This document shows, in pieces, positions 25,710 through 29,827 of a DNA stretch of 34,506 nucleotides (within the stretch, counting starts at the first letter, position 1; the number at the start of each line of letters is the position of its first letter). This DNA is from Actinomycetes bacterium (GTDB lineage: Bacteria; Actinomycetota; Actinomycetes; Prado026), in NCBI GenBank assembly GCA_036510875.1, contig DATCDE010000029.1, positions 1 to 34,506 of the forward strand, read 5' to 3'. Under the pieces are notes generated by a model. It was not told the origin of the DNA and ran no database searches. It was given only the letters and a program-made list of their open reading frames with translations. The translations under genes were made by a program, and so were the position numbers.

Positions 25710-26771
25710 TCAGCCGGCCAGCTCGGCGGCCGCGACCGCGAGGAACCGGTCGGACGCCTCCGGCTCGGCCACCGTGACCCGCGCGCCTTCCCCCGGGAAG
25801 GCGCGGACCACCACCCCGGCCCGCTCACACGCAGCCGCGAAGGCCTCGGTGCGCCCCCCGAGGCCGACCCAGACGAAGTTCGCCTCCGACTCGGGGACGG
25901 CGATGCCCAGCCCGCGCAGCGCCGTGAGCACGCGCTCCCGCTCGGCGACCAGCACGTCGACCCGCTCGAGCAGCTCCTGCTCCGCGGCCAGCGAGGCGAC
26001 CGCAGCGGCCTGGGCGAGGTCGCTGACCCCGAACGGCACCGCGGTCTTGCGCAGCGCGGCCGCCACCGGCTCGTGGGCGACCGCGAACCCGACCCGCAGA
26101 CCGGCCAGACCGTAGGCCTTGGAGAACGTGCGCAGCACGGCCACGTTCGGCCGGTCCCGGTACAGCTCGATGCCGTCTGGCACCTCGGGATCGCGCACGA
26201 ACTCGCGGTAGGCCTCGTCCAGCACGACCAGGACGTCGCCAGGGACGGCGTCCAGGAACCGCTCCAGTGCGGCCCGGCGCACCGGGGGGCCGGTCGGGTT
26301 GTTCGGGTTGCACACGAACACGACCCTGGTCCGTTCGGTGACCGCGGCCGCCATGGCGTCCAGGTCGTGCCCGCCGTCCTGGGCCAGCGGCACGCGCACC
26401 GAGGTGGCCCCGCTCAGCTGCACGAGGATCGGGTAGGCCTCGAACGAGCGCCACGGGAAGATCACCTCGTCACCCTGGCCGGCGGCGGCCATGAGCACCT
26501 GCTGGGCGACGGCGACCGACCCGGTGCCGACGGCGAGGTGCTCGGCCGGGACGCCGAACCGGCCGGCCAGCGCCTCGACCAGCGCGGTCGAGGCGAAGTC
26601 GGGGTACCGGTTCACCTGGCCCGCGGCGCTCTCGATGGCAGCCAGCACCGACGGCAGCGGGGGGTAGGGGTTCTCGTTGCTGGAGATCTTGTAGGCGCCC
26701 TCGGGGGCCGGACGGCCGGCCCGGTAGGACGGTACCCCGTCCAGGGCGGCGCGCAGCCGCGGTGCCGTCAT
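25710..26771 (-). CDS. hisC2: Histidinol-phosphate/aromatic aminotransferase HisC2 (Pat-like)
   Basis: A 353-residue fold-type I PLP aminotransferase, the same length as mycobacterial HisC2 as remembered. Recognisable parts are [24 protein letters not shown] (PLP phosphate), [19 protein letters not shown], Asp185 in [10 protein letters not shown], the Schiff-base Lys218 in [16 protein letters not shown] and the C-terminal Arg region [11 protein letters not shown]. Family members transaminate histidinol phosphate or phenylalanine/tyrosine with their 2-oxoacids; outside a his operon the aromatic role is likely. ATG 26771 is chosen over an upstream in-frame GTG because TAGGCT lies 7 bp before it, a leaderless layout. 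Confidence 0.88.
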
Positions 26772-26778
26772 GGGCGCC

Positions 26779-26784
26779 AGCCTA
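26779..26784 (-). promoter_or_regulatory. Leaderless -10 box TAGGCT before hisC2
   Basis: On the minus strand TAGGCT is followed by 7 bp and then ATG 26771, with no ribosome site between. Confidence 0.45.
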
Positions 26785-26979
26785 CGGTCCGCCGGGCAAC
26801 GCCACCCACCCGACAATCGACTGACGGTGGATCGCTCAGGTCATGACGCGGTTTCGCCGAAGTTGGCCAGGTCGGGTGGTTTCCAGCCCCCAGCGTCAAG
26901 CGTCCGAACGGGTGGGTCGATGAACGAGTCGGCGGTCAAAGACGCCGACCGGCCGGATCGGACTACGGAGGGGACCACG

Positions 26980-27753
26980 ATGGACGACCTGCTCAACGAA
27001 CTGGAGCCGCAAGGCCCCGCGCCGGAGGAGCGTGAGCGCAGGCGGCGGCTGATCGCTGCAGTCGGCATCGCGGGCCTGTCCCTGCTCACGGTGGGCACGC
27101 TGAGCTCGGGCGCCTGGTTCTCCGACACCGAGACGGTCAACGCCGGCCAGATCGTCACCGGGTCGGTCATCCTCGCCAACAACACGACGAAGACCGTGCA
27201 GTTCAGCGAGACCAACCTGGCCCCCGGTGACACGCGCTACGCCGAGGTGCACGTCAACAACACCGGCTCGCTCCAGCTGCGCTACGCGGTCGCCGCGAAC
27301 TCCACCGCGGTGACCTCCGCAACCACGGGGGCGGGCGGAGCGGCGATCGCGGCAGCGGCGGCCGCCGCGACGGCTGCAGGGAAGACCTGGAGCCCGAGCG
27401 GCTACAACCTGGCCGACCAGCTGTGGTTCACCGTGTGTTCCGTTGCCTTCGTGGGCGGGGCGTGCCCGACCACACCCACGAACGACGTCCTGTTCGGTGG
27501 CACGAACACCACCGCTGACCTCTTCGGGGACGGCAGCGTCTCGTCGACGACGGACTCCAAGGTGCTCTTCGGCTCCCCAACGGATGCCCCGGGAGTCCGT
27601 GCGAACGACCGGGTCATCCCGGCTGGCGGCTCCGACACGCTCTACATCAAGGCGCATCTGGACGGCCCCAGCACGGACAACTCCTGGCAGGCCACCGGCA
27701 CCGCCATCTCGCTGGTGTTCAACTCGTTCCAGACTGCCAACAACACTCCGTAA
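26980..27753 (+). CDS. SipW-dependent exported protein (TasA/camelysin-like)
   Basis: A 257-residue exported protein with the atypical signal used by SipW-class peptidases: a charged n-region (PAPEERERRRR), the hydrophobic stretch LIAAVGIAGLSLLTVGTLSS and then GAWFSDTETVNAGQIVTGSV, the FSDTET block typical of camelysin/TasA substrates. The mature part is Ala/Thr/Asn-rich and beta-like (ETNLAPGDTRYAEVHVNNTG, an alanine run at about residues 123-130). Such proteins build fibres or surface layers in Bacillus; here that role is inference. I start at ATG 26980, with GGAGGGG at 26967-26973, though the frame is open to 26770 and ATG 26920 is possible. The stop codon overlaps the signal peptidase ATG (TAATG). 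Confidence 0.78.
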   Translation: MDDLLNELEPQGPAPEERERRRRLIAAVGIAGLSLLTVGTLSSGAWFSDTETVNAGQIVTGSVILANNTTKTVQFSETNLAPGDTRYAEVHVNNTGSLQLRYAVAANSTAVTSATTGAGGAAIAAAAAAATAAGKTWSPSGYNLADQLWFTVCSVAFVGGACPTTPTNDVLFGGTNTTADLFGDGSVSSTTDSKVLFGSPTDAPGVRANDRVIPAGGSDTLYIKAHLDGPSTDNSWQATGTAISLVFNSFQTANNTP

Positions 27754-28499
27754 TGCCGATGACGAGGGGAGCGCGGGCGCGTCGCTGGGCCTTTCGGCTC
27801 GCGTTCGCGCTCTCCGTCGTCGGCCTGATCGCGGCGTTCGGCACGCCGCTGTGGTTCCGGCTGCACGGCCAGAAGCTCTTCATCATCACCAGCGGCAGCA
27901 TGGAGCCGAACATCCTCCCCGGTGACGCGGTGGTGATCCAGCCGATCGGCAGTGACGAGCTGCGGGTCGGCCAGATGGTCACCTTCCGCAACACGGTGCC
28001 CGTCAAGGGGCCCACCGGGCAGGTAACGACGTACACGACCCACCGCATCGTCGCGATCAAGCAAGTCAACGTGCAGGACCCGACCACCGGGCAGTTCATC
28101 AAGGACGGGACCGGCGGCAACGTCGGTCGCTGGTTCATCCAGACCAAGGGCGACAACAACCGAGACCCTGACCCGAACCTGACGCCGGTCCAGGAGATCC
28201 TCGGCCAGGTGGTCCAGGTGCTCCCGCGCTGGGGCTACTTCTTCCACTTCGCGCAGTCCCGCCAGGGCCTGCTCCTGCTGTTCACTCCACCGCTGCTGCT
28301 CATCCTCGGCGCCGAGGTGCTGTCCTGGGGTCGGGCGGCCAAGCGCAGCAAGCAGGCCACCGAGGCCAAGGAGGCACTGCCGCACCGCCCGCACAAGCCA
28401 CGCCTGCCGATACCCGCGCCGCGCGACCCGGTGGGGGCACCCCCGACGGCCACGACCACGCCAGAGAGCGTCCGCGATGCGGTCCACACCTCTGCGTGA
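27753..28499 (+). CDS. sipW: SipW/ER-type signal peptidase I
   Basis: A 248-residue membrane-bound S26B signal peptidase. One N-terminal helix at about 13-35 precedes the catalytic FIITSGSMEPNILPGDAV with Ser49; TTYTTHRIVAI supplies His97 in place of the usual bacterial Lys, the mark of the SipW/ER class; KGDNNRDPDP holds the conserved Asp134. A second helix follows at about 183-197 and then a Pro/Ala/Lys-rich cytoplasmic tail. It should process the neighbouring exported proteins. The start overlaps the upstream stop, and its 3' end overlaps the next gene by 23 bp, so the three genes form one operon. Confidence 0.88.
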   Translation: MPMTRGARARRWAFRLAFALSVVGLIAAFGTPLWFRLHGQKLFIITSGSMEPNILPGDAVVIQPIGSDELRVGQMVTFRNTVPVKGPTGQVTTYTTHRIVAIKQVNVQDPTTGQFIKDGTGGNVGRWFIQTKGDNNRDPDPNLTPVQEILGQVVQVLPRWGYFFHFAQSRQGLLLLFTPPLLLILGAEVLSWGRAAKRSKQATEAKEALPHRPHKPRLPIPAPRDPVGAPPTATTTPESVRDAVHTSA

Positions 28500-29466
28500 C
28501 GCTCGCGCCCGACTGGCGGCGGCCCTGATCATGGCCGTCGCCTCCGTGCTGCTCACCCTCGGCGTCCCCGGGCTCCAGGTCGGGCGCTCCGGCGCCAACC
28601 TGAGCGACACCCAGACCGCGAGCGCCGGAAGCCTGGTCACCCGGGCGGCCTGCACGACGCCCAGCTCCTATGCGGCCTCCGTCACGGCGCTCAACCCGAC
28701 GTTCTACTGGCGCTTCTCCGAGGCTTCCGGCGCCACCACGGTCGCCGACGCCTCCGGCCACGGCAACGCCGGGACGGTGGTCACCAGCTCGCCCGCGGCC
28801 GGGGTGGCCGCGCCGCTCACCCTGGGAGCCGCGACAAGCGGCCTGGTGCGGTGCGACGGCACCGGGCTGACCTCGCCGAGCATCCCCGGGACGTCGAGCA
28901 GCGGCAGCTCCGTCGTCTGGCCTAGCCCTCAGCCCAACTCGAACACCTTCTCGATCACGGCCTGGGTGCGGACCACCTCGACCGCCGGCGGCCGGATCAT
29001 CGGCCAGGGCAGCTCGACCTGGGCCAAGGACAAGCACTACGACCGGCAGATCTTCCTGGACAACGCCGGGCACGCCGTGTTCGCGATCTACCCCGGCCGC
29101 TTCTACTACCTGCGCTCGTCGATGGCGGTCAACGACGGCAAGCCGCACTTCCTGGCCGCGACCCTCGGTCCGGCGGGGGCCGCCCTGTATGTGGACGGAG
29201 TCCGGGACCAGTTCGACCCCAGCCAGCACACCGCCGAGAACTACACGGGCAACGAGACGACCACCCCGACCTCGACGACGAACACTCCGGACGGCTCGGG
29301 CTATTGGCGGGTCGGCTGGGACAACCTCACGGGCTGGACGACGACGGGGCAGCCGCAGCCGACCGACTTCGGCCTCAACGGCGGCATCGACGAGGCCGCC
29401 CTGTTCGCCGGACAGCAGCTCACCGACGCCCAGATCGCCGGCCTGTGGGCCGCCAATCACTGGTAG
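28477..29466 (+). CDS. Exported LamG-like (concanavalin A-fold) domain protein
   Basis: A 329-residue exported protein. The N-terminal hydrophobic segment LAAALIMAVASVLLTLGVPG is followed by GANLSDTQTASAGSLV, which resembles the SDTxTxxAG block of SipW substrates. The rest is a laminin-G-3/LamG-like jelly roll: NPTFYWRFSEASGATTVADA, SGHGNAGT, NTFSITAWVRTTST, GKPHFLAATLGPAGAALYVDG and GLNGGIDEAALFAGQQLTD are its usual strands. Such domains bind carbohydrates or proteins. ATG 28477 lies inside the end of sipW. It is probably a second client of the SipW peptidase and may be a surface or matrix component. Confidence 0.82.
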   Translation: MRSTPLRDARARLAAALIMAVASVLLTLGVPGLQVGRSGANLSDTQTASAGSLVTRAACTTPSSYAASVTALNPTFYWRFSEASGATTVADASGHGNAGTVVTSSPAAGVAAPLTLGAATSGLVRCDGTGLTSPSIPGTSSSGSSVVWPSPQPNSNTFSITAWVRTTSTAGGRIIGQGSSTWAKDKHYDRQIFLDNAGHAVFAIYPGRFYYLRSSMAVNDGKPHFLAATLGPAGAALYVDGVRDQFDPSQHTAENYTGNETTTPTSTTNTPDGSGYWRVGWDNLTGWTTTGQPQPTDFGLNGGIDEAALFAGQQLTDAQIAGLWAANHW

Positions 29467-29560
29467 ACCGTCCTTCGAACGGCCTGGATACGGTTACGAC
29501 CGGTCGGTTCCCGGCGTGCCGACCCCCCCACGACACCCGTTCTGCGGCACCCTGCCTCGC

Positions 29561-29827
29561 ATGACGCAGGAGCCGGTCGTCGTCGACCTGTCGCAGCGGA
29601 TCGTCGAGACGTCCTGGGAGCAGGTCCGAGCGCAGGCGGCCGACCCGGCGACCTCGGCCGCCGAGCTCGGCACCCTCGCCGGGCACCTCAGCTTCATCGT
29701 CCGTGCGGCCGTCGCCGCCCACGCCAACACGCCAGCAGCCGTGCGGGCCCGGCTGGCCGACGACCCACACCCCGCGGTCCGTCGCGCGGTGACCTTGAAA
29801 GAGCAAGAAGTCCCTCCCGTCCACTAG
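29561..29827 (+). CDS. Small helical-repeat (LRV-like) protein
   Basis: An 88-residue hydrophilic protein beginning MTQEPVVVDLSQRIVETSW. The second half, LSFIVRAAVAAHANTPAAVR and LADDPHPAVRRAVTLKE, looks like two leucine-rich-variant or HEAT-like helical repeats (the xxxxVRxAVAxxxxTP pattern). No function can be given. No clear ribosome site precedes ATG 29561. It is separated from the LamG gene by 94 bp in which I see only a short TTCGAA-centred inverted repeat. Confidence 0.5.
   Translation: MTQEPVVVDLSQRIVETSWEQVRAQAADPATSAAELGTLAGHLSFIVRAAVAAHANTPAAVRARLADDPHPAVRRAVTLKEQEVPPVH

Follow-up and report, generated by a model that had tools for sequence, protein, structure and literature searches.

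In Bacillus, SipW and TasA make biofilm fibres, and related fibres occur in archaea. The locus described here raises the question of what a LamG protein does when it is encoded, in an actinobacterium, together with a SipW-type signal peptidase and a TasA-like protein. The cassette lies in a stretch of 34,506 nucleotides from an Actinomycetes bacterium (hereafter the window) and consists of three plus-strand genes: gene 1 for a TasA/camelysin-like exported protein of 257 aa (26980-27753), gene 2 for a SipW-type signal peptidase of 248 aa (27753-28499), and gene 3 for an exported LamG_3 protein of 329 aa (28477-29466). A strong ribosome-binding site, GGAGGGG (26967-26973, +), stands 6 bases before the gene 1 ATG at 26980. 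The gene 1 stop codon TAA (27751-27753) has one base in common with the sipW ATG at 27753 (TAATG), and the sipW stop codon (28497-28499) runs past the lamG ATG at 28477, giving an overlap of 23 bp; both overlaps had been reported from the sequence alone, and their coordinates were exact when re-read. Given this junction and this overlap, co-transcription and translational coupling of the three genes are almost certain. The divergent neighbour, a hisC-like aminotransferase gene (25710-26816, -) taken from the ORF lists, serves as a context marker outside the mechanism; it also adjoins the cassette in three other loci (L032, L033, and L034), which suggests that the locus was inherited vertically. 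Downstream of lamG, an ORF at 29189-29827 (+) matches leucine-rich-repeat-variant models just under the cut-off and has no evident link to the cassette.

Judged by sequence, gene 1 encodes a TasA/camelysin homologue. It scores 34.4 bits against PF12389 (Pfam cut-off, 22.5), a family matched by 29 of 30 aligned gene 1 homologues (E<=0.01), and the gene 1 family profile finds the TasA fibre chains 8aur (E 3.9e-8) and 5of1 (E 2.3e-7) in the PDB. The alignment to 8aur opens at chain residue 2, that is, at the mature N-terminus which forms the fibre donor strand; in TasA, the donor strand comprises residues 28-38 (PMC9674648). A second, weak profile match to TasA covers a C-terminal EATQ/AEQT segment. 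Within the family, the N-terminus MDDLLNELE and the C-terminus xxQTANN are conserved, and A45, F47, and D49 are invariant among the 30 homologues. Based on these invariant residues and on the alignment to the TasA mature start, cleavage is predicted after Ala45 (SSGA/WFSD), with the leader at 26980-27114 (+) and the mature N-terminus WFSDTETVNAGQIVT at 27115-27159 (+) in the TasA donor-strand position. When the AlphaFold model of gene 1 was compared with solved structures, 8aur (Z 7.2), 5of2 (Z 7.0), 5of1, and the archaeal bundling pilus 7ueg (Z 6.3) were among the best matches, albeit with Z values (6.3-7.2) barely above those of unrelated jellyrolls and with models of moderate quality (pLDDT 63.7 for gene 1 and 68.8 for gene 3). 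Thus, the TasA claim is carried by sequence. Gene 1 is not the Bacillus TasA equivalog (NF046066, 18.7 bits; cut-off, 450).

Gene 2 is, by sequence, a Ser-His-Asp signal peptidase of the SEC11 type (S26). It matches TIGR02228 with 70.7 bits (cut-off, 51.85), and a profile of its relatives matches eukaryotic SEC11 subunits (SEC11A, E 1.6e-13). The His-for-Lys change of the SipW class, which the sequence-only reading had recognized, is seen in the residues Ser49 (codon 27897-27899), His97 (28041-28043), and Asp134 (28152-28154), all on the + strand and conserved in 123, 123, and 121 of 123 SipW sequences, respectively. With 61.1 bits, gene 2 falls below the cut-off of the Bacillus SipW equivalog NF046067 (190 bits) and belongs to the same superfamily. 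It is the one clear SipW in the window's own genome. No viral contigs encoding this SipW were found, and plasmid matches were distant and mostly haloarchaeal; on these grounds a mobile-element reading was dropped.

Gene 3 is, by its profile match, a LamG_3 protein (PF13385, 37.9 bits; cut-off, 27.6). Hence both family assignments of the sequence-only reading, TasA-like for gene 1 and LamG for gene 3, hold with Pfam scores over the cut-off, the former also with the profile match to TasA chains. The LamG_3 (concanavalin A-like) domain spans residues 142-262 (28900-29262, +), and the AlphaFold model is a jellyroll whose PDB matches are concanavalin-A-like. Matches of this model to toxins and sialidases reflect the generic fold only and were given no functional reading. 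Such a fold gives no sugar specificity, and binding of a wall or matrix polymer by gene 3 would be a prediction. The nearest solved sequence is the S-layer domain protein 4qvs (E 1.2e-9). Gene 3 does not match the TapA family TIGR04087, nor any other NCBIfam model at E<=1, and its proposed likeness to TapA is a functional analogy only. The TafC family fimbrial protein (NF052521) was considered as a named precedent and set aside because the LamG part reaches at most 28.6 bits against a cut-off of 410, and no match above the cut-off was found in 396 genomes of the phylum.

The two exported proteins are related at their leaders. Cleavage of gene 3 is predicted after Ala40 (RSGA/NLSD), which is invariant in gene 3 alignments, with the leader at 28477-28596 (+) and the mature N-terminus at 28597-28641 (+), where it resembles the donor-strand segment of gene 1. 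When the gene 1 leader SSGA/WFSDTETVNAGQIVT was compared with 1,123,324 19-mers from ORFs of the window and of 77 related loci, its best match apart from itself was the gene 3 leader RSGA/NLSDTQTASAGSLVT (BLOSUM score 52, 11/19 identical); the top clearly unrelated 19-mer scores 31. By this comparison, the SDTxT block that had been noticed in both proteins is shared beyond chance. The NCBIfam SipW-leader model TIGR04088 scores above its cut-off of 19 in the window's genome at gene 1 only (20.6 bits when DNA was searched, 17.4 bits when proteins were scanned) and leaves gene 3 unmatched; thus, the gene 3 leader is established by direct similarity and not by that model. An HMM of TasA leaders likewise missed the window's gene 3. 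In 23 loci, gene 3 leaders are closer to the gene 1 leader encoded in the same locus than to those of other loci (mean 28.5 vs 21.2; none of 20,000 permutations as high), in a test where leaders were placed by hand and the shared ancestry of the loci could itself produce the result. In all 23 loci, both genes have Ala immediately before the predicted cut; Asp occupies the fourth position after the cut in 23/23 leaders of gene 1 and in 17/23 of gene 3. What the leaders have in common may be no more than a recognition signal for the peptidase, and ordinary LepB could use the predicted site (S/T-G/S-A) as well.

Searching genomes for conserved sipW-LamG neighbours, as the sequence-only reading had proposed, showed that the arrangement recurs. 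A single SipW protein as query gave no related loci; an alignment as query found them. The full trio is present in the window and in at least six other actinobacterial genomes (L042 (=L032), L043 (=L033), L034, L044, L045, and L049), and L046 has sipW-lamG with the upstream end lost at a contig edge, so that homologues of gene 3 adjoin sipW in seven other loci. The named carriers are metagenome-assembled genomes of Actinomycetes, including Candidatus Nanopelagicales and one labelled Streptomycetales. In surveys of the class, the SipW model matches 113 of 394 genomes and the LamG model 52 of 297. Of 77 LamG loci, 21 have a same-strand SipW at a distance of up to 1.5 kb, with about 0.03 expected; the models were built partly from linked copies, and leaving out the six building loci gives 15/71.

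Furthermore, SipW and LamG are joined in one ORF in 13 distinct loci (L035, L114, L116 (=L126), L127, L128, L129, L130, L132, L134, L136, L141, L142, and L156), and both halves were confirmed by Pfam and NCBIfam in those tested. A typical fusion has three hydrophobic segments, one before and one after the catalytic domain and a third, which is under the threshold used in L127, L130, and L156, before a motif that leads into LamG. Peptidase and LamG are thus separated by a segment resembling a leader and by an A[AS]F[ST]ATT-like motif (e.g., AAFSATTKSVGNSW). Judging from this topology, LamG would be outside the cell membrane, and its cleavage site would lie on the outer face, beside the active site of the peptidase. 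In a maximum-likelihood tree, the clade of the window's cassette is far from the fusion clade and LamG is present in both, which indicates that the SipW-LamG link exists in two lineages.

A diverged LamG protein also stands behind tasA-sipW in L074, L079, L082, and L091. In many Cellulomonas, gene 3 is reduced to about 67-180 residues, comprising just a leader of the SipW type followed by a low-complexity tail. The persistence of the leader segment after loss of LamG suggests a function for the exposed N-terminal segment itself. These operons also have a characteristic neighbour. A membrane GGDEF-EAL gene lies upstream of the tasA-like gene in 45/45 Cellulomonas-type tasA-sipW loci and downstream of lamG in 4/4 Nanopelagicales-type loci (L044, L045, L046, and L049), and the domains were confirmed in seven of the flanking genes. 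No GGDEF-EAL gene is adjacent in the window, in its three closest cassettes (L032, L033, and L034), or at the fused loci; GGDEF genes are present elsewhere in the window's genome. The flanking genes of the related operons fit biofilm control by c-di-GMP. The sequence-only reading had proposed a matrix or surface assembly different from that of Bacillus. The TasA homology and these c-di-GMP genes support a role in biofilms or at the surface; carbohydrate binding, fibres, and SipW-dependent cleavage are predictions.

Taken together, the recurring peptidase-LamG link, often as one fused protein, suggests that these bacteria have a fibre system of the biofilm type, equipped with its own subunit for surface binding or for starting the fibre. 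The reading we prefer, to which we give about an even chance, is that the cassette is an actinobacterial TasA-type fibre operon in which the LamG protein is a second SipW substrate and a minor, TapA-like starter or anchor. In this scenario, Sec would export the gene 1 and gene 3 proteins, which would be held by their N-terminal leaders, and the Ser/His/Asp peptidase would cut both after the common [ST]GA, exposing the similar N-terminal strands. The TasA-like protein would then polymerise by donor-strand exchange like its homologue TasA, and the LamG protein would take the part of TapA by starting, capping, or anchoring the fibre, while its LamG head would bind a polymer of the wall or matrix. 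Since LamG is made with SipW and is fused to it in relatives, its amount would be tied to the low amount of SipW in a 1:1 ratio.

The tapA-sipW-tasA operon of B. subtilis offers the closest model. Both have a TasA homologue, a dedicated Ser-His-Asp peptidase, a second SipW substrate (predicted here) with a mature N-terminus resembling that of TasA, and overlapping genes, TapA and SipW being the overlapping pair in B. subtilis (PMC10151520). The N-terminus of TapA shares the TasA donor strand (PMC9674648), TapA residues 44-57 suffice for biofilm formation, and TapA is about as scarce as SipW (PMC10151520). The short Cellulomonas gene 3, a leader with a tail, recalls this sufficiency of a short N-terminal peptide, and in a SipW-LamG fusion the LamG part would be fixed at a ratio to SipW as low as that of TapA. 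The present system differs from that of B. subtilis in its gene order (tasA-sipW-lamG), in having a LamG protein in place of TapA, in its actinobacterial host, in the c-di-GMP genes at related loci, and in the existence of SipW-LamG fusions. These fusions allow a further proposal, which we put forward tentatively: the fibres would have a lectin (LamG) starter or tip, and in one large lineage the peptidase would carry it as a self-processed C-terminal domain, both maturing the subunits and nucleating or anchoring the fibre.

Alternatively, SipW may have two independent clients, TasA-like fibres and a separately acting LamG surface lectin or adhesin with only the peptidase and leader in common. 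The shared block is indeed limited to the leader and first residues, 56 of the 77 LamG loci in these genomes are away from SipW, and a fusion of SipW to Big_7 in L157 indicates that SipW can also carry exported modules of other kinds. The conserved gene order, and the short gene 3 forms which keep the leader segment but lose LamG and so mark the N-terminal segment as the conserved function, speak against this alternative, and we consider it possible but rather unlikely. It is improbable that the LamG protein regulates or chaperones the peptidase instead of being part of a fibre or surface structure. Physical fusion in 13 loci, which would hold LamG near the active site, and the 23-bp gene overlap in the window would suit such a role, but a cleavable-looking leader is present in both fused and separate forms, and Cellulomonas can lose LamG yet keep SipW. 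Finally, that the cassette secretes a camelysin-type metalloprotease with a lectin partner, and not a fibre, is very improbable: the Pfam family is named camelysin metallo-endopeptidase, but the gene 1 protein lacks an HExxH motif, for which reason protease activity was set aside, has just two histidines, and has a family profile that aligns with the fibre protein TasA, donor-strand position included.

Two other systems resemble the preferred TasA-type fibre operon in part. The sipW-calY1-bc_1280-calY2 locus of Bacillus cereus combines PF12389-type proteins with SipW and, like the window, has no TapA; in contrast to the window, no LamG protein is described there (PMC10151520). The bundling pili of Pyrobaculum calidifontis (7UEG) have a related fold, albeit near the level of unrelated jellyrolls (Z 6.3), and are donor-strand fibres for which a starter subunit was proposed (PMC9715654); unlike the window's system they are archaeal, and the sequence of gene 1 is nearer to TasA. 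In the open-access literature searched, we found no paper joining SipW or TasA with LamG. If true, a conserved actinobacterial version, with its LamG partner, the c-di-GMP genes next to related operons, and the fusions of peptidase and substrate, would extend the TasA fibre class to a large phylum. It would suggest how fibres start or attach in bacteria that lack TapA, and SipW specificity could be studied cleanly in a peptidase that is joined to its own probable substrate.

Several minor observations concern related loci. Two genomes from a single family have several TasA-like genes arrayed upstream of sipW and a LamG gene (L133:2014-5801 and L137:3072-6843, -). SipW is also fused, each time after a SipW-like leader motif, to three Big_7 Ig repeats (L157:2339-4690, -), to an uncharacterised region (L120:5824-7542, +), and to a shorter region (L145:3974-5029, +). 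The fusions in L035, L114, and L116 keep a chromosomal setting upstream of an apparent prfA (with prmC, a rho-like gene, and rpmE where seen) and are directly preceded by small exported proteins with the same leader type and no PF12389 match. One of these (L114:1406-3010) is on a contig labelled Acidobacteria; as its fusion is of the actinobacterial type and clusters in the tree with a sequence from actinobacteria, the contig is probably mis-binned.
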